Shown here one piece after another: positions 13,981 to 30,789 of a stretch of DNA of 64,000 bases. A model generated the notes under the pieces. That model did not search any database, was not told the DNA's origin, and worked only from the letters and a program-made list of their open reading frames with translations. The stretch lies in NCBI RefSeq assembly GCF_900604485.1, contig NZ_UWOP01000001.1:1940369-2004368 (forward strand), written 5' to 3'. Positions within the stretch are counted from its first letter, which is position 1. Every line of letters begins with the position of its first letter. The translations under genes and the position numbers were made by a program. This stretch comes from Enterococcus mediterraneensis (GTDB lineage Bacteria > Bacillota > Bacilli > Lactobacillales > Enterococcaceae).

Positions 13981-14067
13981 ATTTTGGTGAGTGCAGAGCT
14001 CATCTATTACGATATTCCGCTGAGACAGGGTTCTTAAGAATATTTGGGAATAAGGAGAATGATAAAT

Positions 14068-14415
14068 ATGAATCCATTGATTCAAGAATTGACACAAGAA
14101 CAATTGCGTACAGACATCCCAGCTTTCCGCCCTGGTGACACGATCCGTGTTCATGCGAAAGTTGTCGAAGGTACGCGGGAACGTATCCAGCTTTTTGAAG
14201 GTGTTGTAATCAAACGCCGCGGCGCAGGTATCAGCGAAACTTATACAGTACGTAAAGTTTCTAACGGTGTCGGTGTTGAACGTACTTTCCCATTACACAC
14301 ACCACGTGTTGCACAAATCGAAGTTGTTCGTTACGGTAAAGTTCGTCGTGCGAAATTGTACTACCTACGTGCATTACACGGAAAAGCAGCTCGTATCAAA
14401 GAAATTAGAAGATAA
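14068..14415 (+). CDS. rplS: 50S ribosomal protein L19
   Basis: A 115-residue L19, which sits at the 30S-50S interface. Diagnostic blocks are [58 protein letters not shown] and the basic C-terminus [18 protein letters not shown]. The ATG at 14068 has AAGGAG eight bases upstream. Its 3-prime end marks the left flank of the conjugative element, which begins within about 100 bases. Confidence 0.98.
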
Positions 14416-15527: not shown

Positions 15528-18500
15528 ATGAAAAAGCCAAGATTTAAAAATTGGCGATTATTTGCGACTTTAGCTCTGTTGGGTCAAACCATTGGCGGAG
15601 CGATTGGTCCTACGATTGCCTTTGCCGATGAGATTACTCATCCGCAAACGGTTACCGTGCATAGTGATCAGTCCCATCTTTATTCTGTTGAGGGAACTTT
15701 TAGTGATGGTCGAACATTATCTGAGGTAACTGTTCCTCATTATGCTATCTATAATGGGGAGAAACAAGATATTTTCTGTATTGAACCAGGAGTGCCAATT
15801 TACAATGAGTTCACTCCTGGTTATGAGAAAAATCCATTGCCTGATATGCCGGAGAAAGCCAAATTAGTTTCAGTTTTATGGCAAAATGCCGGTACAGACA
15901 TTGATACACAAATGGTTGCTCAAAAGATGATCTGGCAAGAGGCCAATGGGTATACACTTCACTCTATGAATCATCCAGATGGCAGTGCTGTAAATATCGC
16001 AGCCATTGAGGCAAAAATTAATCAAGCTATTTCCGATTATCAGAAGAAACCAAGTTTCCACAATAGCACGGCTAAAACTGTGTTAGGTCAATCGACTACT
16101 GTAACGGATACGAATAATTTGAACTTGTCAGAGTTCGATGAAGTTGTGGAGAATACCGCAAATATTGATTATCGTGTCAATGGCAATCAATTGGTCATCA
16201 CCCCAAATGCTAATTCTAAAGAAAGTGGTGTGTTGACGCTTAAGAAATCTGCTGGAATTGGAACACCGGTTGCCTATAAAATGGCCGGTCAACAAACCCT
16301 GATGGCTGGGGCGATTGATAAACCGAACACTTACACAGTCAAAATTGATGTGGAAACGGAGGGAGTTTTAAAAATCAAAAAAGTTGATAAAGAATCAGGT
16401 GCTATTGTACCAGGGACGGTTTTCCATTTAGATTTTGGAAAATCTTTACCTGCAAAAGACGTGACTACTGACAAAGAAGGCGTTGCTTTCTTAGATGGGA
16501 TTCCTCACGGTACAAAGGTAACTATTACTGAAAAATCAGTGCCAGCGCCTTATACGATTGATACTACCCCCATGACTGCCACGATTAAAGCAGGCGAAAC
16601 CATTTCTGTGACTTCAAAAAACACGCGAGAAAAAGGTCAAATCATTCTGGATAAAACCGGAGTTGAAACAGGGAGTGATCTTTGGAATGACAATTACTCA
16701 TTAGCTGGTAATACGTTTGCCATTCGCAAAGACAGTCCCACTGGTGAAATCGTTCAAAAAATGATCACGGATGAAAACGGTCATGCAGAAACACCAAAAG
16801 AGATTGCCAATGCGTTGGAATTGGGAACTTACTACGTGACCGAAACCAAAGCATCTAATGGCTTTGTGAATACCTTTAAACCAGTAAAAGTCGAATTGAA
16901 GTATGCCAATCAAACCGTAGCCCTTGTTACCAATAATGTCAAAAGGCAAAACCAAGAAATTACTGGTGAAACCACTTTGACGAAAGAAGACAAAGATACC
17001 GGTAATGAAACTCAAGGGAAAGCTAAGTTTAAAGGAGCTGAATATACTCTCTTTACTGCAAAAGATGGTCAAGCGGTTAAATGGAGTGAGGCTTTTAAAC
17101 CAGAATTCGTGAAAGGAACGAAAGCTTCTGATGAAACCGTAACTTTGACTTTAGATGAAAAGAATCAAGTTGCCGTTAAACATTTAGCCATTAATGAGTA
17201 TTACTGGCAAGAAACCAAGGCTTCTGAAGGATATACCTTGGATGAAACGAAGTATCCTGTATCCATCAAAAAGGTGGATGATAGCGAAAAAAATGCTGTG
17301 ATTACCCGAGATGTTACGGCAAAAGAACAAGTGATTCGCTTTGGTTTTGATTTCTTTAAATTTGCTGGATCAGCTGCGGGCACTGCCGAAACTGGCTTTA
17401 ATGATCTGACCTTTAAAGTGTCGCCATTAGAAGGAACCAATGAAATTACAGGCGCTGAAGATGAAGCGACCACAGCTTATAACGAGCAACTAGGTTTTGA
17501 TGGCTATGGCAAGTTTGAAAATCTTCCTTATGGGGATTATTTACTTGAAGAAGTAGAAGCCCCAGAAGGATTTCAAAAGATTACGCCATTAGAAATCCGT
17601 TCTACTTTTAAAGAAAATAAAGAAGACTTTGTGAAGAGTGAGTATGTCTTTACCATTACCGAACAAGGTCAAAAACAACCGATTAAGACGGTGATCGTTC
17701 CTTACGAGAAGCTGACGAACAAAGCATTTTCGGTTAGTTTGAACCGTTTGATGCTCTATGATTTGCCTGAGGAAGAAGATAGTTTGACTTCCCTTGCGAC
17801 TTGGAAAGACGGGGACAAAGAATTGACTACCCTTGATTCTACCGAGCTAATTGATAAGTTGAGCTATAACTTGCATGAAATCAAAGAAGACTGGTATGTG
17901 GTAGCACAAGCCATTGATGTGGAAACGACAAAAGTTGCCCAAGAAAAAGATGAAAAAGCCAAACCAGTGGTAATTGCCGAAACGACGGCCACCTTGGCGA
18001 ACAAAGAAAAAACAGGAACTTGGGAAATTCTGCATAAATTAACCGCCGAACAAGTTTTGGATAAAACCATTGTTTTGTTCAACTATGTCTATGAAAACAA
18101 GGAAGCCTTTGAAGCAGGCGATGAGCCAGTAGCAAAGGATGCTAGTTTGAATAACCAAGCCCAAACTGTTAATTGTACGGTGGAACGCCATGTTTCCATC
18201 CAAACAAAAGCGCACCTAGAAGACGGTTCTCAGACCTTTACTCATGGTGATGTGGTGGATATGTTTGATGATGTATCCATTACCCATGATGTACTGGATG
18301 GCTCAAAAGAAGCCTTCGAAACAATTCTGTATGCACTACTACCAGATGGCACGACCAAAGAAATTTGGAATTCTGGAAAAATTGATTACGAAGTGAATAA
18401 CAAAGAATTCACCAAAAACGTGCCTGCTGAAAAAGTAGATACCGGAAAGTATCCAGAAGGAACCAAGTTTACTTTTGCGGAAATCAATTATGATAAAGAT

Positions 18501-18755
18501 GGAAACATCAATGGGAAACACAATGAAGATTTGAAAGAAAAATCTCAAACCTTAACACCAAAAGAAGTGCCAACCACACCAAGTACGCCGGAACAACCGG
18601 AAACACCAACCGTTCCAAGTGGCTCTCAAGAATCTAGTCCTACAGTGAAGACATTCCCTCAAACTGGGGAGAAAAATTCTAATGTGTTACTGTTCATTGG
18701 CTTTACATTGATCTTTGCGACGGCAGGCTATTATTTCTGGAATCGCCGAAACTAA
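15528..18755 (+). CDS. Thioester/CnaB-domain LPXTG surface protein
   Basis: A 1075-residue cell-wall adhesin. Residues 1-33 are a signal peptide ending AFA. Residues about 50-200 resemble a thioester adhesion domain: C84 in IFCIEPG and Q132 in AQKMIW could form the internal Cys-Gln thioester. Then come several SpaA/CnaB-like Ig modules (for example EGVLKIKKVDKESG..., QIILDKTG..., ending with the E of ITEK, VTETKAS, LEEVEAPEGF), which normally contain Lys-Asn isopeptide bonds. A Thr/Pro linker precedes the sorting signal FPQTGE, a hydrophobic segment and WNRRN. It probably mediates attachment or mating aggregation. It precedes the transfer genes and has its own terminator. Confidence 0.88.
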   Translation: MKKPRFKNWRLFATLALLGQTIGGAIGPTIAFADEITHPQTVTVHSDQSHLYSVEGTFSDGRTLSEVTVPHYAIYNGEKQDIFCIEPGVPIYNEFTPGYEKNPLPDMPEKAKLVSVLWQNAGTDIDTQMVAQKMIWQEANGYTLHSMNHPDGSAVNIAAIEAKINQAISDYQKKPSFHNSTAKTVLGQSTTVTDTNNLNLSEFDEVVENTANIDYRVNGNQLVITPNANSKESGVLTLKKSAGIGTPVAYKMAGQQTLMAGAIDKPNTYTVKIDVETEGVLKIKKVDKESGAIVPGTVFHLDFGKSLPAKDVTTDKEGVAFLDGIPHGTKVTITEKSVPAPYTIDTTPMTATIKAGETISVTSKNTREKGQIILDKTGVETGSDLWNDNYSLAGNTFAIRKDSPTGEIVQKMITDENGHAETPKEIANALELGTYYVTETKASNGFVNTFKPVKVELKYANQTVALVTNNVKRQNQEITGETTLTKEDKDTGNETQGKAKFKGAEYTLFTAKDGQAVKWSEAFKPEFVKGTKASDETVTLTLDEKNQVAVKHLAINEYYWQETKASEGYTLDETKYPVSIKKVDDSEKNAVITRDVTAKEQVIRFGFDFFKFAGSAAGTAETGFNDLTFKVSPLEGTNEITGAEDEATTAYNEQLGFDGYGKFENLPYGDYLLEEVEAPEGFQKITPLEIRSTFKENKEDFVKSEYVFTITEQGQKQPIKTVIVPYEKLTNKAFSVSLNRLMLYDLPEEEDSLTSLATWKDGDKELTTLDSTELIDKLSYNLHEIKEDWYVVAQAIDVETTKVAQEKDEKAKPVVIAETTATLANKEKTGTWEILHKLTAEQVLDKTIVLFNYVYENKEAFEAGDEPVAKDASLNNQAQTVNCTVERHVSIQTKAHLEDGSQTFTHGDVVDMFDDVSITHDVLDGSKEAFETILYALLPDGTTKEIWNSGKIDYEVNNKEFTKNVPAEKVDTGKYPEGTKFTFAEINYDKDGNINGKHNEDLKEKSQTLTPKEVPTTPSTPEQPETPTVPSGSQESSPTVKTFPQTGEKNSNVLLFIGFTLIFATAGYYFWNRRN

Positions 18756-21402: not shown

Positions 21403-22545
21403 ATGAGATTTTTAGATTTATTCGCCGGAATTGGCGGCTTTCGCTTAGGTATGGAACAAGCGGGTCACCAGTGTATTGGCTTTTGTGAAATTGATGAATT
21501 TGCTCGAAGGAGTTATAAGGCAATCCATGATACAAGTAAGGAGGTGGAAATGTATGACATCACAAGTGTATCAGACAAGTTTGTTCAATCCCTCGGACCA
21601 GTGGACATCCTTTGCGGCGGATTTCTGTGCCAAGCTTTTTCAATTGCGGGAAAGCGGCAAGGATTTTCCGATACTCGAGGTACTTTATTCTTTGAAATCG
21701 CTCGATTCGCCACTCTTCTCCAACCTAAGCTTCTATTCCTTGAGAACATCCGGGGATTGCTTAATCACGAAGGAGGGGCTACGTTCGAGACGATCCTCCG
21801 AACACTGGATGGATTGGGGTATGATGTGGAATGGCAAGTGCTTAACTCAAAGGCCTACGTTCCCCAAAGCCGTGAGCGGGTCTTCCTTATCGGACATTCT
21901 CGAGACGCATGTACCGAACAAGTATTTCCTATCATTGGATCGGCTCCAACATCTGATCAAAACATCAGAAACTTGGTAAATATCAATCCTTCCAATCGAG
22001 GCATGGGTGGACAAGTCTATGGTTCAGATGGTGTAGCGCCCACCTTAACTGGTGATGAAGGAATCAAAATCGCACTACCGGTAAAGGATGGTATTTCTGT
22101 AGCGGGTATGTTACCGGGAAATTTTGAACAAGGCAATCGGGTATACGAAGTAACCGGAACAGCTCCCACTTTGTCAACGAAACAAGGGGGAACAAAGATT
22201 ATGATTCGGAAAAATGAAACAGAATATCAAGAGGTGAAGCCAGGGGACAGTGTGAACCTGGCTTTTCCTAATTCCACAAGTCGCCGAGGCCGTCTCGGGA
22301 AACAAAGTGTGCATACTTTGCTAACGGGAGACCAACAAGCGGTAGTCACGGATCAGTACCAGATTCGAAAGTTAACACCTAGAGAGTGTTGGCGACTTCA
22401 AGGATTTCCCGATTGGGCTTTTGACCGAGCTTCTCAAGTCAATTCAGATAGTCAGTTGTATAAGCAAGCCGGAAACTCAGTAACAGTTCCGGTCATTTTT
22501 GATATTGCCAGAAGATTAAAGGAGGTAAAAATAGATGATTTATGA
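21403..22545 (+). CDS. DNA (cytosine-5)-methyltransferase, altered PCQ motif
   Basis: A 380-residue m5C methyltransferase. Motif I is LDLFAGIGGFRLG, motif VI LENIRGLL, motif VIII QSRERVFLIG, and motif X QAGNSVTVPVIF. The catalytic loop (motif IV) reads GGFLCQAFS: Cys76 is present, but the nearly invariant proline before it is Leu75 (codon CTG, 21625-21627). This could reduce activity. No restriction enzyme is adjacent, so it is an orphan, most likely protecting the element on entry into a new host. It lies between orf21 and oriT and overlaps the next gene by 11 bases. Confidence 0.93.
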   Translation: MRFLDLFAGIGGFRLGMEQAGHQCIGFCEIDEFARRSYKAIHDTSKEVEMYDITSVSDKFVQSLGPVDILCGGFLCQAFSIAGKRQGFSDTRGTLFFEIARFATLLQPKLLFLENIRGLLNHEGGATFETILRTLDGLGYDVEWQVLNSKAYVPQSRERVFLIGHSRDACTEQVFPIIGSAPTSDQNIRNLVNINPSNRGMGGQVYGSDGVAPTLTGDEGIKIALPVKDGISVAGMLPGNFEQGNRVYEVTGTAPTLSTKQGGTKIMIRKNETEYQEVKPGDSVNLAFPNSTSRRGRLGKQSVHTLLTGDQQAVVTDQYQIRKLTPRECWRLQGFPDWAFDRASQVNSDSQLYKQAGNSVTVPVIFDIARRLKEVKIDDL

Positions 22546-23082: not shown

Positions 23083-24267
23083 TTGGCGAAAAGAAATTTA
23101 AGCAAGGAATTGCTGAAAGAAAAGCGTAAGGATTACAAGATTTCGCAGAACAAATTAGCTGTCGCATGTAATTTGACTAGAGAATATATCAATAAGATTG
23201 AATCAGGTCTACTTACACCATCAGAAAAAACCATGAGGAAAATTTTTGACCAACTGGAAAGTTTCAATCCCGATTTGCCTTTGACGTTACTGTTTGACTA
23301 TGTAAGGATTCGTTTCCCCACAACGGATGTACGGAAAATTATTCAAGAAATTCTCCATTTGAAATTTGAGTATATGCTTCATGAGGATTACGCCTTTTAC
23401 TCTTATCAGGAACAATATGTCATGGGCGATATTGTGATGATGTTGTCTCATGAAGAAGATAAGGGCGTTCTTTTGGAATTAAAGGGGCGAGGTTGTCGGC
23501 AATTTGAAACTTTTTTACTTGCTCAAAAGCGTAGCTGGTACGACTTTTTCGGAGATTGTCTAAAAGCCGGTGGCGTGATGAAACGCATAGACTTGGCAAT
23601 CAATGATCGAGTGGGGCTATTGAATATTCCTGATTTAACGAAAAAATGTCAGGAGGAAGAATGTATCTCCTTGTTTCGTACCTTCAAAAGTTACCGTTCC
23701 GGGGAACTGTTGAAAGCTGATGAAAAGGATGGTATGGGCAATACCTTATATATCGGTAGTCTTAAAAGTGAAGTTTATTTTTGTTTGTACGAGAAAGATT
23801 ATGAGCAGTATATCAAGTTAGGGATTCCATTAGACCAAACTGAAACGAAGAACCGGTTTGAAATTCGGTTGAAAAACGATCGTGCCTATCATGCGATTCA
23901 AGATTTGTTAAAAGGTCGTAGCATTGAAAGTACCACGTTTTCCATTATCAACCGTTATTTGCGATTTGCGGATAAAGTAGAAGGCAAAAGGCGAACCAAC
24001 TGGCCCTTAAATGAACGATGGGGTCGCTTTATTGGGCGGAATCGCAAGGAAATCCAATTAACCTCTGAGCCGAAACCTTATACTATCGAACGAACCTTGA
24101 ATTGGCTTGGACGTCAAGTCGCCCCTACGTGGAAGATGGCTAAGGAGTTGGATCGGTTGAATCAGACCACTTATATCCAGGATATGGTACAGAATGCGCG
24201 ACTCTCGGACCGACACAAAAAGATTTTGGAGCAACAAAGTGTGGCAATTGAAAACCTGATTATATGA
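23083..24267 (+). CDS. MobT-type relaxase (Tn916 Orf20)
   Basis: A 394-residue relaxase/replication initiator of the Rep_trans (pT181-like) class. Residues 1-60 are a helix-turn-helix (KISQNKLAVACNLTREYINKIESG), followed by the catalytic rolling-circle domain (RIDLAINDRVGLLNIPDL with metal-binding Asp, then YIGSLKSEVYFCLYEKD and the catalytic-tyrosine region). It nicks oriT and starts strand transfer and element replication. The start is TTG at 23083, after an ideal AGGAGG six bases upstream. Cognate oriT lies immediately upstream. Confidence 0.93.
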   Translation: MAKRNLSKELLKEKRKDYKISQNKLAVACNLTREYINKIESGLLTPSEKTMRKIFDQLESFNPDLPLTLLFDYVRIRFPTTDVRKIIQEILHLKFEYMLHEDYAFYSYQEQYVMGDIVMMLSHEEDKGVLLELKGRGCRQFETFLLAQKRSWYDFFGDCLKAGGVMKRIDLAINDRVGLLNIPDLTKKCQEEECISLFRTFKSYRSGELLKADEKDGMGNTLYIGSLKSEVYFCLYEKDYEQYIKLGIPLDQTETKNRFEIRLKNDRAYHAIQDLLKGRSIESTTFSIINRYLRFADKVEGKRRTNWPLNERWGRFIGRNRKEIQLTSEPKPYTIERTLNWLGRQVAPTWKMAKELDRLNQTTYIQDMVQNARLSDRHKKILEQQSVAIENLII

Positions 24268-24281
24268 AAAGAGGAATAGTT

Positions 24282-24377
24282 ATGGGAATTATAAAAGATA
24301 TTTTACTGGTATTTGGTGGCAGTCTACTTGGTGTCACTGTGATGTGCTTGATGAATGCAAGTGCAGCGGCGGACTGA
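24282..24377 (+). CDS. Small DUF3789 membrane protein
   Basis: A 31-residue protein (MGIIKDILLVFGGSLLGVTV, then MCLMNASAAAD) with one membrane helix. Such DUF3789 peptides are found directly after orf20 in many Tn916-like elements; their function is unknown. It has its own ribosome-binding site, AAGAGGA, and lies 14 bases after the relaxase stop. Confidence 0.7.
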   Translation: MGIIKDILLVFGGSLLGVTVMCLMNASAAAD

Positions 24378-24638: not shown

Positions 24639-25142
24639 ATGGAACAGATGCGTGTTTATATTGCGAACCTTGGAAAATACAATGAAGGTGAGTTGGTGGG
24701 GGCATGGTTTACCCCACCTGTCGATTTTGATGAAGTGAAAGAACGGATTGGATTAAATAATGAATATGAGGAATATGCAATTCATGATTATGAACTACCT
24801 TTTGAGATTGATGAATATACGCCAATTGAAGAGATTAATCGGTTGTGTGGTTTAGCAGAAGAACTTGAAGGAACGCCAATTGGTGAGGTTGCTTTAGAGA
24901 TTCAACATGCTTTCTTTAATTCTTTTGAGGAAATGGTAGAGCATGTGGATGATATTGTCTATTATCCGGACTGTGATGATATGAGTGATGTGGCGTATTA
25001 TTTGATTGTGGAAGCTGGTGATTTTGGCGAAGTACCAGAACACTTGAAGACGTATATTGATTTTGATGCGTGTGGTCGAGATTTGGAGATTGGAGGGAAT
25101 TATCTGGTTACTAGTCGAGGAATATTTGAATATGTTGGTTAA
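24639..25142 (+). CDS. ardA: Antirestriction protein ArdA (Tn916 Orf18)
   Basis: A 167-residue, very acidic protein of the ArdA family, which mimics the DNA double helix and inhibits type I restriction enzymes in the recipient cell. The opening MEQMRVYIANLGKYNEGELVG and the block LVGAWFTPPVDFDEVKERIGL are diagnostic; the acidic surface is visible throughout (EEYAIHDYELPFEIDEY). It is in its usual place before orf17, but a PHP-ATPase gene has been added between them. Confidence 0.95.
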   Translation: MEQMRVYIANLGKYNEGELVGAWFTPPVDFDEVKERIGLNNEYEEYAIHDYELPFEIDEYTPIEEINRLCGLAEELEGTPIGEVALEIQHAFFNSFEEMVEHVDDIVYYPDCDDMSDVAYYLIVEAGDFGEVPEHLKTYIDFDACGRDLEIGGNYLVTSRGIFEYVG

Positions 25143-25154
25143 TACAAAGTAGAC

Positions 25155-25184
25155 TTGACTACTGATAAATCAGAAGGCTATGAT
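25155..25184 (+). promoter_or_regulatory. Promoter for the PHP-ATPase gene
   Basis: TTGACT at 25155-25160, 18 bases, TATGAT at 25179-25184, about 35 bases before the ATG. This gives the gene its own promoter inside the transfer operon. Confidence 0.55.
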
Positions 25185-25219
25185 TGATTTAATGATAAAC
25201 ATAAGTAGGAAGTGACAAT

Positions 25220-27904
25220 ATGACCCAAGTAACAAAAGGTAAATCAAGCTCTCAGATAATTATCCCACGGTTATATAAAGCGCTAAGCACTTCGGAGAAC
25301 GGCGGGAGATTTAGAAAAACGCTATTTCATATTCATACTCCTGCATCATATGATTACAAATTAATAGATGAAGAGACACAAAACTTGCTCAAAATTCAAA
25401 AAAATAATAATTGGAAAACTTTTACAGAAAATGATCTTATGAAAATATGGAATTATCTAGAAATCTCTGTATTTAAAGATCACTCAAGTGAAGAAATATG
25501 CAAGATAATGCCTGAAATTTTTTGTGACATTAAAGAATTTTTGGCTTATTTGATAGTTGGGCATACTATCCTCATGGAAAAAATTGAATTTTGTTTAGTA
25601 ACGGATCACAATACTATTGCGGGATTTGAAAAATTGGAAGAAGCAATTGGTATCCTACTTCATGAACGCAAGGATTATCCAGTTAAAACTAGACTAGAAC
25701 TTGGAATTGAAATATCATGTTCAGATAAAAACCATATAGTAGTAATCCTAGATAGAAGGAAGAACAATCAGATTAGAAATCTTGCAAATTGGCTTGAAAA
25801 AAATATTATATCTAGTAAAGACGGTACTATCCGTACCTCATTAGACGTCTTTAATGAGATTAATAAAATTAATGCCATCGGCTATATTGCACATATCAAC
25901 ACATCAAATATTTTTAATAAAGATTACTTGAGTGGAACGTATAAGAAACAACTATTTAATTCAGGATTGTTCAATATAATTGGGGTTACAGATATTAAAC
26001 AAATTGCTGGGACGACTGAAAGATTGTTCAATCTCACACATCAAAAGTTCAATTTTGTAATAGATAATGATTCACATCATATTAACCAACTGAAGCAGAA
26101 TTTTTTCTATATAAAAGGGGATAAATTAAATTTCTCAACCTTACAAGCAGCTTTTCGTGATTTTTCTTTGTCAGTGTGCTATGAATTACCCAGATTACCC
26201 GATCAGTATATCAAGGCAATTTACGTAGAGGGTAAAGAATTTCTGAAGGGTAAAGATGGGGGCTATTTAATTTTAAAGTTTTCTAGCATGATGAACGCAT
26301 TTATTGGAGGTAGAGGTACTGGAAAAAGTACACTTCTAAATATATTAGGATTTGCAATTTCTCAATATTGTGAGACACCTCAGGATTTAAGAAAAATTTT
26401 GTTACAGGGTACTTGCGCTGTGGTTTATCATTATCATGGGCAAGATTTCTATATTCTTTCCCATTCAAGTGATCAAGAAAACAATGAAATTTTCATCCAT
26501 AATTATTTTAATGAAACAAAAAATTCATTACGAAATACAGAGGAAGATGAAGAAAATACTCGAAAAATAGCTATCAATGATAGAGTTCAAGTATTCACTT
26601 ATGATGGTAAAAATGTGGAAATTTACCGGAGGCAAAATGAAATTCTAAAAAAATTATTGACAAGAAAATTTACAGTGAACGATTTAGTGAGGGTTGCTAG
26701 TAGTGATTACGAGATTACTGATTTTGTCGACAAGATTCTTTTTGAAAATAAAGATATAAGAAACAGAAGTAATTTTTATAATATTGGGAAAGAATTTAAA
26801 GGTTTATTCAACAAATTCGATAAGAGAGTGAATATTCTAGAAAGAAGGAAGGATAATGTTGGGCATCTCTTGGATTCCTATAATGAATCACAAAAAGGTA
26901 AATTGAGAATTTTATTTTCCCAAGAAGAAATTGATGACCAGCATTTTAACTGGTTTGATGCACTTGGTGTAACTAGTTATCGTAGTTCTGAATATTTTAA
27001 AAAATATGCAATCACTTATGATGATCTTACTAGTTATCTTAGCTGGAGGTCAGAACAGGTTGGAGGAAGTATTGAGCTGCTTCGGATTTTTTATAATAAA
27101 GATTACGAAATTCTAGTTAGTGATGATACATCTTCAAAATTCTTTGTTGATACATCCAACAAGACAACGGATCTTGAGTTGAAGTTCTTGAAAAATAAAG
27201 AGGATATTTTAGAGTTTCACAAATATTTGAGACAGAGGCTAATTACTCCAAGTTGTGAGCAGTATGCAAAGAGATTTTTGAAGAATTACTTCAATCATTG
27301 TGAACAATTCACTTTGGAATTCAATATTAATAACAAAGAAACAACTGACACAAGAGGAATTAACTATCAAAATATCAATACATTATCAATGGGACAGAAA
27401 GTAGTTGCGATTCTGTCATTCTTACTATCATATAGTCAATATATTGGAGACTATTCACCTTTCATTATCGATCAGCCTGAAGATAACTTAGATAATCAGT
27501 ATATTTATAAGAATTTAGTAGCAGATTTAAGAGACCTCAAACAATATCGTCAAGTTATATTAGCAACTCACAATTCAACTATAGTTATGAATAGCGGCTG
27601 TGAACAAGTACTAGTCATGAGTTCTGATAATCAGAAAGGTTGGTGTGAAATTTCTGGTTATTTTTCAAATCCACAAATTGTAAATCAAGTGATTAATATT
27701 CTTGAAGGAGGTAAGCCTGCATTTACGGATAAAATGTTTTTGTATAATGAGAAGCTTCCAAAAAATGTTAGTAATACTATTTCAGAAAATATTAAAGAAT
27801 TGTCGAAAAAGAACTCAATAGTTGATGAAATTGTATTAAAACTAGATGGATTTATATCAGATAACAACATGGAAGCAATACAGCATTTTATAAATTTAGA
27901 ATAA
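25220..27904 (+). CDS. PHP-domain AAA/SMC-like ATPase (TrlF-like), candidate defence protein
   Basis: An 894-residue protein. Residues about 35-290 are a PHP phosphoesterase-like domain: H37-I-H39, TDHN (D129/H130), E164 and H172 in GIEIS...H, H225 in GYIAHIN, and D282/D284/H286/H287. Residues about 340-860 are an SMC/Rad50-type ATPase: Walker A GGRGTGKST (363-371), a long helical insertion, signature LSMGQ near 722, Walker B FIIDQPEDNLDN near 747-758 and H-loop ATHNS near 783. The fusion matches the TrlF-like family of metal phosphoesterase plus ATPase proteins often seen in defence islands. It is AT-rich relative to its neighbours, with its own promoter and terminator, inserted between ardA and orf17. 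Confidence 0.75.
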   Translation: MTQVTKGKSSSQIIIPRLYKALSTSENGGRFRKTLFHIHTPASYDYKLIDEETQNLLKIQKNNNWKTFTENDLMKIWNYLEISVFKDHSSEEICKIMPEIFCDIKEFLAYLIVGHTILMEKIEFCLVTDHNTIAGFEKLEEAIGILLHERKDYPVKTRLELGIEISCSDKNHIVVILDRRKNNQIRNLANWLEKNIISSKDGTIRTSLDVFNEINKINAIGYIAHINTSNIFNKDYLSGTYKKQLFNSGLFNIIGVTDIKQIAGTTERLFNLTHQKFNFVIDNDSHHINQLKQNFFYIKGDKLNFSTLQAAFRDFSLSVCYELPRLPDQYIKAIYVEGKEFLKGKDGGYLILKFSSMMNAFIGGRGTGKSTLLNILGFAISQYCETPQDLRKILLQGTCAVVYHYHGQDFYILSHSSDQENNEIFIHNYFNETKNSLRNTEEDEENTRKIAINDRVQVFTYDGKNVEIYRRQNEILKKLLTRKFTVNDLVRVASSDYEITDFVDKILFENKDIRNRSNFYNIGKEFKGLFNKFDKRVNILERRKDNVGHLLDSYNESQKGKLRILFSQEEIDDQHFNWFDALGVTSYRSSEYFKKYAITYDDLTSYLSWRSEQVGGSIELLRIFYNKDYEILVSDDTSSKFFVDTSNKTTDLELKFLKNKEDILEFHKYLRQRLITPSCEQYAKRFLKNYFNHCEQFTLEFNINNKETTDTRGINYQNINTLSMGQKVVAILSFLLSYSQYIGDYSPFIIDQPEDNLDNQYIYKNLVADLRDLKQYRQVILATHNSTIVMNSGCEQVLVMSSDNQKGWCEISGYFSNPQIVNQVINILEGGKPAFTDKMFLYNEKLPKNVSNTISENIKELSKKNSIVDEIVLKLDGFISDNNMEAIQHFINLE

Positions 27905-27910
27905 ATTCTG

Positions 27911-27951
27911 GGCAGTCATTTTACTATATTTTGGATGACTGCCTTATTTTT
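27911..27951 (+). terminator. Terminator after the PHP-ATPase gene
   Basis: GGCAGTCAT/ATGACTGCC stem followed by TTATTTTT. It isolates the inserted gene from orf17. Confidence 0.85.
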
Positions 27952-27965
27952 CGAAAGGAGAAAAC

Positions 27966-28355
27966 ATGAAAAAAATAAAAAGCTATACCAGTATCTGGGC
28001 AGTTGAAAAAGTCATTTACGCAATTAATGACTTTCAGCTGCCTTTTCCTGTGACCTTTAACCAGATGGCTTGGTTTGTTTTATCCTTGCTGTTTGTCATC
28101 GTATTTGCCCATGTGCCTCCGCTGTCTATGATAGAGGGGGCATTTCTAAAATACTTAGGTATACCGGTGGCGGTTACTTGGTTCATGTCGCAAAAGACCT
28201 TTGACGGCAAGAAACCATTAGGATTTTTACGATCTTTTATCAGCTATCACTTACGGTTTAAGGTCACTTTCGCAGGAAAGAAAGTCAAAGAACAAAAGAA
28301 ACGATGGGACGAACCCATTACTCTTGTAAGGAGTGTGAACTATGTACCCGATTAA
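27966..28355 (+). CDS. TcpE family conjugal protein (Tn916 Orf17)
   Basis: A 129-residue membrane protein of the TcpE family (Orf17): two membrane helices (WFVLSLLFVIVFAHVPPL and a weaker one), then a basic C-terminus (GFLRSFISYHLRFKVTF). TcpE is part of the Tn916-type mating channel. RBS GAAAGGAG precedes the start, and the last 14 bases overlap orf16. Confidence 0.9.
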   Translation: MKKIKSYTSIWAVEKVIYAINDFQLPFPVTFNQMAWFVLSLLFVIVFAHVPPLSMIEGAFLKYLGIPVAVTWFMSQKTFDGKKPLGFLRSFISYHLRFKVTFAGKKVKEQKKRWDEPITLVRSVNYVPD

Positions 28356-30789
28356 GTATATCGAAAACAATCTTGTCTTTAACCAAGAAGGCGAGTGTTT
28401 TGCCTACTATGAATTAGTGCCCTATAACTATTCCTTTTTATCGCCTGAACAGAAGTATCAAGTACATGATAACTTTCGCCAATTAATTGCACAGAATCGT
28501 GAAGGGAAGATCCATGCCTTACAAATTGCGACAGAAAGCAGTATTCGCGTCACACAAGAGCGCTCGAAAAAGGAAATTATCGGTAGACTCAAAGAAGTAG
28601 CGAAACAAAGAGTTGACCTACAAACAGATGCATTAGTATCCATGATTGGCGATAGTCAGATTGATTATCGCTTTTTTATTGGCTTTAAACTAATTGTGAC
28701 AGATGAAGAGGTTAATCTAAAAAGCCTCAAGAAATCTTTCTTTTCTGGGTTTCAAGAATTTGTCTATGGAGTGAATCATCATTTGATGGGTGATTTTGTT
28801 TCCTTATCTAATGAAGAAATTCGCCGATATACCAAGCTAGAAAGGTTAATGGAGAGTAAATTAGCTCGGAGATTTAAAGTCAGACGTGTCACACCGAGTG
28901 ATCTGACGTATTTGATTGAACATATCTATGGTGAAAAAGGCACACCGTTTGAAGAATATGAATTCCAACTACCAAAGAAAAAGCTGAAATCAGAAACGCT
29001 GGTGAAACGTTACGACTTATTACGTCCCACTCGTTGTCTGATTGAAGAAAAGCCCCGTTACTTACGAATTGAACATGAAAATCATGAGTCTTATGTAGCG
29101 TATCTGACAATCAATACGATTGTAGGGGAAATGGAGTTTCCTTCCTCAGAACTTTTCTATTACCAGCAACAACAATTTACTTTTCCTATTGATACTTCAA
29201 TGAATGTGGAAATCGTGACGAATAAAAAGGCCCTAGCTACTGTTCGCAATAAGAAAAAAGAACTGAAAGATTTAGACAACCATGCTTACCAATCCGATAA
29301 TGAAACGAATTCCAATGTACTAGATGCGTTGGATTCCGTGGATGAGTTGGAAACCACCTTGGACCAGTCAAAAGAATCCATGTACAAATTGAGTTATGTG
29401 GTTCGAGTGAGTGCAGAGTCTGTAGATGAACTAAAGCGCCGCTGTGATGAAGTGTTCGATTTTTATGATGATACCAATGTAAAACTAGTCCGGCCCTTTG
29501 GCGATATGATGGGGCTACATGAAGAATTCTTACCTTCTAGTAAGCGATATATGAATGACTATATCCAATATGTTACTTCTGACTTTTTGGCGGGACTTGG
29601 ATTTGGAGCTACACAGATGCTAGGAGAATTGGAAGGAATTTACTTTGGCTACAATGTAGATACGGGTCGTAATGTTTATCTCAAGCCGGCTTTGGCTTCA
29701 CAAGGAGTCAAGGGTTCAGTTACCAATGCGCTAGCTGCCGCTTTCCTTGGTTCACTAGGTGGTGGGAAATCCTTTAGTAATAATCTCCTAGTTTACTATG
29801 CTGTTTTGTTCGGTGGGCAAGCTGTGATTGTCGATCCAAAAGGCGAACGAGGTGGTTGGAAAGAAACCTTGCCAGAAATTGCGGAGGAAATCAATATTCT
29901 CAACTTGACCAGTAAGCCAGAAAATCAGGGCTTACTTGATCCTTATGTGATTATGAAGAAAAAGAAGGACTCGGAAAGTTTAGCAATTGATATCCTGACT
30001 TTTTTAACAGGGATTTCTAGTCGAGATGGGGAGAAGTTTCCAGTGTTGCGCAAAGCCATTCGAACCGTTACCCAAAGTGAGCAACGAGGATTATTACAAG
30101 TAATCGTTGAATTGCGTAAAGAGGGTTCGTCAGTCGCGGAAAATATCGCCGATCACATCGAGTCCTTTACCGATTATGATTTTGCCCATTTGCTTTTCTC
30201 AGATGGTTCGATTACCCAATCGATCAGTTTAGACAAGCAGTTGAATATCATTCAAGTGGCGGATCTGGTTTTACCGGATGCGGAAACGACTTTTGAAGAA
30301 TATACCACCATGGAATTGCTTAGTGTTTCGATGTTAATCGTCATTTCGACTTTTGCCTTGGACTTTATCCATAGCAACCGAGAAATTTTTAAGATTGTGG
30401 ACTTGGATGAGGCGTGGAGTTTTCTTCAAGTGGCACAAGGGAAAACATTATCGAATAAGCTTGTTCGTGCTGGGCGGGCTATGAATGCCGGGGTTTACTT
30501 TGTCACGCAAAATAGTGACGATTTACTGGATGAACGCTTGAAGAATAATATCGGATTGAAGTTTGCGTTTCGTAGTACCGATATTCATGAAATTAAGAAG
30601 ACTTTGGAATTTTTTGGATTGAATCAAGAAGATGAAAGCAATCAAAAACGCCTACGAGATTTGGAAAACGGCCAATGCTTGATGCAAGATTTGTATGGAA
30701 GAGTTGGCGTAGTTCAAGTTCACCCTGTCTTTGAAGAACTCTTCCATGCCTTTGATACCCGTCCACCTGTTCAAGAGAGAATGGAGTGA
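28342..30789 (+). CDS. VirB4/TcpF-like conjugation ATPase (Tn916 Orf16)
   Basis: An 815-residue VirB4-type ATPase that powers assembly of the mating channel. The N-terminal half is helical and variable; the motor has Walker A GSLGGGKSF near residue 470, Walker B IVDLDEAWSFL, and the C-terminal YFVTQNSDDLLDERLKNNIG block. It overlaps orf17 at the start and ends just before orf15. Length and domain order are normal for the family, with no sign of truncation. Confidence 0.95.
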   Translation: MYPIKYIENNLVFNQEGECFAYYELVPYNYSFLSPEQKYQVHDNFRQLIAQNREGKIHALQIATESSIRVTQERSKKEIIGRLKEVAKQRVDLQTDALVSMIGDSQIDYRFFIGFKLIVTDEEVNLKSLKKSFFSGFQEFVYGVNHHLMGDFVSLSNEEIRRYTKLERLMESKLARRFKVRRVTPSDLTYLIEHIYGEKGTPFEEYEFQLPKKKLKSETLVKRYDLLRPTRCLIEEKPRYLRIEHENHESYVAYLTINTIVGEMEFPSSELFYYQQQQFTFPIDTSMNVEIVTNKKALATVRNKKKELKDLDNHAYQSDNETNSNVLDALDSVDELETTLDQSKESMYKLSYVVRVSAESVDELKRRCDEVFDFYDDTNVKLVRPFGDMMGLHEEFLPSSKRYMNDYIQYVTSDFLAGLGFGATQMLGELEGIYFGYNVDTGRNVYLKPALASQGVKGSVTNALAAAFLGSLGGGKSFSNNLLVYYAVLFGGQAVIVDPKGERGGWKETLPEIAEEINILNLTSKPENQGLLDPYVIMKKKKDSESLAIDILTFLTGISSRDGEKFPVLRKAIRTVTQSEQRGLLQVIVELRKEGSSVAENIADHIESFTDYDFAHLLFSDGSITQSISLDKQLNIIQVADLVLPDAETTFEEYTTMELLSVSMLIVISTFALDFIHSNREIFKIVDLDEAWSFLQVAQGKTLSNKLVRAGRAMNAGVYFVTQNSDDLLDERLKNNIGLKFAFRSTDIHEIKKTLEFFGLNQEDESNQKRLRDLENGQCLMQDLYGRVGVVQVHPVFEELFHAFDTRPPVQERME

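Follow-up and report, generated by a model that had tools for sequence, protein, structure and literature searches.

The Escherichia coli anti-phage protein Ppl is a 3'-5' single-stranded DNA (ssDNA) exonuclease that is kept inactive by nucleoside triphosphates (NTPs) on both of its domains; it is released when phage deplete nucleotides and 3'-OH ends are present (PMC12904381, a 2026 review). In Tn916, orf17 begins 88 bp past ardA and is tied, together with orf16, to host growth arrest (PMC9632896). That element has terminators T2a and T2b downstream of orf18; once it has excised, antitermination by canT allows transcription of the transfer operon to pass its terminators (PMC11658703). Here we describe 64,000 nucleotides of Enterococcus mediterraneensis DNA (contig NZ_UWOP01000001.1, positions 1,940,369 to 2,004,368; hereafter the window), in which a gene of the Spaf_1101 family lies between ardA and orf17 (tcpE) of a Tn916-family integrative and conjugative element (ICE). 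The explanation that we favour, and consider probable, is that the ardA–tcpE interval is an exchangeable defence slot now occupied by this gene, which would be insulated from the transfer genes and encode a Ppl-like nuclease.

We compared the ardA–tcpE junction among relatives represented by one genome per species, so that the survey addresses variation between species. Searches for tcpE in 105 genomes of the family and 395 of the order gave matches in 38 and 65, respectively. Of 53 tcpE places in the family other than that of the window, 44 were fetched, the other nine being weak (E above 1e-20). At order level 24 of 48 new places were fetched, the other 24 being a 184.6-bit match in a 178-codon frame. 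This class is the standard Tn916-type tcpE and all five of its fetched examples (L100–L103 and L148) have an 88-bp gap, which in L100–L103 is exactly the length reported for Tn916. The gap was read in 68 fetched stretches, 67 of them with ardA (L098, without ardA on its stretch, is not among the 67). It exceeded 500 bp at 39 of the 67 sites, a figure that overstates the filled share because the 24 unfetched places belong to the 88-bp class. Two loci with gaps of 360–365 bp and a single 100-residue open reading frame (ORF) were counted as not filled (L108 and L109). At the control junctions, gaps above 500 bp occurred at 0/68 (tcpE–tcpF), 5/67 (mobT–orf19) and 18/67 (orf19–ardA) sites, where orf19 is a positional label for the 90-residue ORF at 24355.

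A clearer picture emerges from the close group, defined by tcpE identity of at least 94% in both searches and complete (21/21 taken). Here the slot is empty in six elements (59–60 bp) and filled in 15, with ten types of cargo, and the control junctions carry one (mobT–orf19), one (orf19–ardA) and no (tcpE–tcpF) insertions among the 21 (Fisher p about 1e-5 and 1e-6). We considered orf19–ardA as a second slot and left it, since the close group has a single insertion there (L070); sso916 occupies this position in Tn916 (PMC9632896). None of the 21 other close elements was found to carry the Spaf_1101 gene of the window, as judged from the stretches read and, for L125, from its cargo. These observations bear on the possibility that the gene is a transfer or DNA-processing function of the element, as its place inside the transfer operon, on the same strand and between two transfer-module genes, might suggest. 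We regard this as very improbable, given that the gene was not found in the stretches read for 21 close relatives with the same backbone, six of which have a gap of only 59–60 bp, and that its GC content and 3' end are unlike the backbone. A fixed transfer gene was accordingly rejected, and the proposal that ardA and orf17 flank a site of varied cargo is borne out.

In the relatives, the slot is either empty or occupied by unrelated low-GC gene sets, many of which match phage-defence systems. Eight of the ten cargo types in the close group match PADLOC models (Table 1); the exceptions are the L073 gene and the pair shared by L068, L079 and L081. Among the 14 types of the more distant group, four match at 1e-20. 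Taken by protein, 25 of 40 scanned cargo proteins match PADLOC at 1e-20 or better, against at least one of the 45 other ORFs of the window, a cytosine methylase, among the matches listed (25 of 38 family rows; Fisher p 4e-10). For ten element proteins the matches were all partial, of ATPase or helix-turn-helix type, with the best at 4.8e-14. The scan covered neither L136 nor the smaller ORFs of L140, and cargo was assigned by BLAST cluster in L068, L071, L076, L081, L085, L092–L094, L096, L099, L104, L106, L107, L127 and L128. A family of proteins of 339–350 residues recurs in the slot of seven elements (L090, L092–L094, L096, L127 and L128), and its L090 member has no PADLOC match. This family, the pair of L079 and the genes of L073, L086 and L091 are candidates for unknown defence genes. 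The occupants include two different PHP-ATPase lineages: at positions 1490–3809 of L082, in another genome, the slot holds a PHP-ATPase of another kind, accompanied by a small partner gene (PDC-M49A/B).

We compared ardA and tcpE in the 22 close elements, the window included. Over most of its length ardA is 75–92% identical between pairs with different cargo. The last 150 or so columns tend instead to follow the cargo: at the very end, identity is 92% in same-cargo pairs and 68% in different-cargo pairs. For tcpE, identity is alike whatever the cargo. Because the end of ardA tracks the cargo and tcpE does not, the ardA tail, the cargo and the terminator form an apparent cassette. Such sets may be exchanged through homologous recombination, with the conserved body of ardA on one side and tcpE on the other.

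As first noted from the sequence, the cargo stretch is more AT-rich than its flanks (30.4% against 39.1% GC), and cargo GC is below flank GC at 39/39 filled sites. The gene had also been credited with its own terminator, and a 12-pair hairpin with a T-rich tail indeed closes the cassette, although a consensus terminator scan allowing loops of 3–8 did not list it. Hairpins with z below −2 precede tcpE at 31 of the 40 filled sites, counting that of the window, and at 23 of 26 sites with a 50–500 bp gap, against mononucleotide shuffles. As for a promoter of its own, the site TTGACT-N18-TATGAT is the best match in the region, but the region holds 18 promoter-like matches and its shuffles 18.0, so the promoter is plausible.

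The ardA–tcpE gap coincides with the Tn916 terminators T2. Given this position, read-through by canT and the hairpins before tcpE, the slot should be able to hold an independently expressed gene set. From this anatomy, we suggest that the cargo would be on, from its own promoter, while the element is integrated and the transfer genes are silent; that the terminator at the cargo end, where Tn916 has T2, would shield the orf17–orf16 pair downstream, which is harmful to the host when active; and that antitermination (canT in Tn916) would read through after excision. We think it fairly likely, and hold this with slightly less confidence than our account of the gene itself, that Tn916-family ICEs have a dedicated, terminator-insulated immunity-exchange locus at T2, where defence sets are swapped via the ardA tail and tcpE and where the unmatched occupants are candidate undescribed defence systems.

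We next consider the gene product. The original prediction, an 894-residue fusion of a PHP phosphoesterase and a Rad50-like ATPase between ardA and orf17, agrees with the ORF, which starts at ATG, with its motifs, with the structure match and with the Pfam domain SMC_N. PHP domains carry the metal-ligand set HxH, D-H, E, H, H and DxH. All of these were found, as HIH (H37, H39), TDHN (D129, H130), GIE (E164), H172, H225 and DxH (D284, H286), including the HIH, TDHN and distal Asp and His residues noted originally. The nine putative ligands are invariant in the 10/10 and 17/17 sequences of two alignments that include the window protein; decay of the metal site was thus rejected, and its retention in homologues is confirmed. 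The domain has a fold like that of endonuclease Q. SMC_N was the only domain above cut-off in the Pfam scan and no PHP domain was named, so that the PHP assignment rests on the motifs and the structure match. The ATPase part has a Rad50-like head fold with Walker A (GGRGTGKS, 363–370), signature and Walker B (IDQPEDNLD, 750–758) motifs, in which an invariant Gln, Q752, stands where a catalytic Glu is usual. A C-terminal extension of roughly 45 residues has low model confidence and is absent from the nine homologues of one alignment. A search of PDB sequences aimed at the Ppl structure returned Rad50/SMC heads only, a PHROGs search gave no match, and a related-locus search with the protein alone gave 32 pattern matches with no relatives among them. 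On sequence grounds the protein is probably a metal-dependent phosphoesterase, with a predicted role as an anti-phage nuclease.

Ppl-like action is the best model for this protein because of the shared motifs, and a Ppl-like end-sensing exonuclease defence is by analogy the most likely mechanism. On the Ppl model, the SMC-like head would bind DNA ends and the PHP domain would degrade a strand; bound NTP would keep the protein inactive until falling nucleotide pools and phage-made ends release it. The replacement of the catalytic Glu by an invariant Gln suits a nucleotide that acts as ligand rather than fuel. Attack on ssDNA that enters by conjugation would be a simple variant of this model.

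The protein matches the NCBIfam family Spaf_1101 (NF045781) over residues 16–845 of 894, well above the family cut-off. It is not a member of Ppl (NF042955; 139.1 bits, cut-off 1000) or of TrlF (NF045780; 223.3 bits, cut-off 350), both of which were rejected. Judged by sequence, the product is a sister of the anti-phage protein Ppl and not Ppl itself, and the gene is a further member of an already named family. The activity of the family in Enterococcus had been called undescribed; since the family already bears a name, it is not entirely so. Genes above the cut-off occur in 7/398 genomes at class level and 4/398 at phylum level (two genomes, that of the window and G215, count in both sets) and in 1/97 relatives, the window's own genome. 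Named relatives lie on plasmids of E. faecalis, E. gilvus (where the gene adjoins a CBASS set), B. arachidis and L. pentosus. We also noted, by eye, a Spaf_1101-type gene outside the ardA–tcpE slot (L110, 9644–11868; genome G001) that ends after the PHP part and has a transposase-like gene alongside. A role in addiction or in SbcCD-like repair, by which the protein would stabilize the element, draws on the resemblance of the head to Rad50 and on a relative in S. suis that adjoins an epsilon-zeta pair. We consider it improbable, since at the slot the gene is single and lacks a partner, and since so sparse a distribution is more like accessory defence than repair.

At 4 of the 37 loci examined (L034, L035, L151 and L171), Tn5252-type relaxosome genes directly follow the Spaf_1101 gene; these loci belong to S. 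suis, S. agalactiae (where the gene is in two pieces), S. henryi and one further genome. Spaf_1101 itself was located in a Tn5252-like element (PMC3329508), and this position is perhaps a second fixed niche for the gene. Such neighbours, together with the requirement of the Ppl exonuclease for 3'-OH ends (PMC12904381), raise an alternative in which the protein mainly targets rival mobile elements, as an exclusion nuclease acting on the free 3' end of incoming conjugative ssDNA. We judge this unlikely, though less so than the other two alternatives: many of the alternative slot occupants match phage-defence systems, and the element's own transfer strand would be likewise exposed.

Several points weigh against a phage-defence cassette at an exchange site. 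The same-cargo pairs in the ardA comparison are few (22, 15 of them empty–empty) and partly related by descent, and over the first 60 columns of ardA the trend is reversed (80% identity in same-cargo and 85% in different-cargo pairs). The orf19–ardA junction carries insertions too in the wider set (18/67). Of the 24 cargo types in the whole set of relatives, half (12) have a PADLOC match, 11 have none at 1e-20 and one (L136) was unscanned, and several of the matches are to PDC models, which are untested candidates. Promoter-like matches are no more numerous than chance predicts, and the canT step is carried over by analogy from Tn916. The protein is only 19% identical to Ppl and far from the curated Ppl cut-off, and the relaxosome-adjacent genes of Tn5252-type elements could point to a transfer role. 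Finally, our literature search on Spaf_1101 function returned one genome paper naming Spaf_1101, with no phage assay or enzymology for the protein or family. Overall, the defence-cassette interpretation is supported.

The host element is recognizable as a Tn916-family ICE from the gene order mobT–orf19–ardA–orf17–orf16 and from MobT and TcpF scores above their cut-offs (Table 1). It appears to be a complete 59-kb ICE inserted in rplS (span 59,039 bp), with an integrase (PF00589, 73.5 bits) and, by eye, an excisionase-like gene. The attL repeat (Table 1) recurs as attR beyond the window, at genome position 2013800 and 123 bp past the end of the integrase gene. Comparison of the two regions gave four 13-bp repeats in all, and the rplS/integrase repeat is convincing because of its position. 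In the rplS region (window 14044–14415) the gene ends with ATT AGA AGA TAA, compared with ATC CGT CGT TAA on the attR side, so insertion of the ICE seems to substitute synonymous codons at the end of rplS without changing the ribosomal protein. A literature search on this integration site found nothing. The same backbone stands behind rplS in 4/8 relatives with fetched flanks (G006, G011, G105:C3 and G009). Between the transfer module and the integrase, from window 37030–64000 to genome position 2013677, lies a large xylan/xylose-type sugar-use cluster (by eye, from translations), apparently carried by this ICE as metabolic cargo. The left end of the element encodes a 1075-residue LPXTG surface protein (window 15528–18755), 88–95% identical in eight relatives (three partial), and elsewhere in the genome a second tcpE is represented by a short, decayed fragment (G000:C1:187676-187789).

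Table 1. Features of the window (window coordinates) and defence-related cargo at the ardA–tcpE slot of relatives
Feature	Position	Strand	Basis
attL, 13-bp repeat in 3' end of rplS	14393..14405	+	
C5-cytosine methylase, apparently backbone	21403..22545	+	PF00145; match in 19/20 close relatives, some partial or at stretch end
mobT, relaxase	23083..24267	+	NF041493, 663 bits (cut-off 600)
ardA, antirestriction gene, left flank of slot	24639..25142	+	PF07275, 9.2e-42
3' end of ardA, tending to travel with cargo, probable left edge of exchanged cassette	25003..25142	+	identity by cargo pair
Promoter-like site	25155..25184	+	best (10 of 12) of 18 matches in region
Spaf_1101-family PHP-ATPase gene (cargo)	25220..27904	+	ORF, 894 residues; NF045781, 894.8 bits (cut-off 475)
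PHP phosphoesterase domain, residues 30–322	25307..26185	+	
Rad50/SMC-type ATPase head, residues about 328–830; natural Gln after Walker B Asp	26201..27709	+	
Terminator-like hairpin	27910..27944	+	−20 kcal/mol for 65-nt stretch, z −5.3
tcpE (orf17), right flank of slot	27966..28355	+	PF12648, 3.5e-35
tcpF (orf16), transfer ATPase	28342..30789	+	NF052333, 1621 bits (cut-off 1100)
L066: ThsB-like TIR, IetA, IetS			PADLOC
L067: GajA, GajB (Gabija)			PADLOC
L069: CBASS set with cyclase, E1-E2, JAB, membrane effector			PADLOC
L072: AbiJ-like protein (C-terminal half matched), PDC-S32			PADLOC; L076 and L071 (split by an insertion sequence) by BLAST
L075: Lamassu LmuA-LmuC-LmuB			PADLOC
L077: Lamassu LmuA-LmuB			PADLOC; L085 alike by BLAST
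L082: PDC-M49A, PDC-M49B			PADLOC
L125: CBASS cyclase, effector, weaker TIR-like gene			PADLOC
L095: PDC-S06			PADLOC
L105: Hachiman			PADLOC; L106, L107 alike by BLAST
L137: PDC-S39			PADLOC
L140: DolB			PADLOC

The slot, rather than the gene, is the part of interest. If our reading is correct, a much-studied family of conjugative elements has a fixed address for phage-immunity modules, readable between ardA and orf17, and phage immunity is a module that such elements trade. This would offer a cheap route to new defence systems, could explain why hosts retain these elements even if they bear no resistance gene, and would connect the terminator/antiterminator system of Tn916 with a safe way of carrying cargo within a silent operon. 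No report of an ardA–orf17 slot was found in the literature searched, which did not extend to subscription papers and preprints, and the accessible parts of PMC12479173, PMC8880864, PMC7563491, PMC12323599, PMC9632896 and PMC11658703 do not describe it.

Among described systems, spbK of ICEBs1 is comparable as an ICE-borne anti-phage cargo gene that is dispensable for conjugation (PMC8880864); it encodes a TIR protein in another ICE, and the accessible text of that paper describes no exchange slot in the transfer operon. At the protein level, the TrlF family AAA-like ATPase has the same architecture, with 23% identity to the member in L290. The Spaf_1101 family itself is matched over its full length and far above the cut-off, with the same PHP and ATPase layout. 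Its relatives, on plasmids, ICEs and chromosomes, are 29–37% identical, but the window protein differs in its 894-residue length with a C-terminal extension and in its place in the ardA–tcpE slot of a Tn916-family element; none of ardA, mobT, tcpE and tcpF was seen nearby in any of the 37 other loci examined. The PADLOC candidate PDC-M49 in L082 is likewise a PHP-ATPase at the very same slot, although it has 680 residues, 18% identity, a Walker B motif with a normal DEP and a small partner gene. Compared with E. coli Ppl, overall identity is low (19%) and the better of the two PADLOC Ppl stretches spans residues 712–837 only, yet the order of motifs is alike: HxHTPAS, DHN, GxE, a GGRG/GSRG Walker A, SxGQK, DQPEDxLD and EGG.
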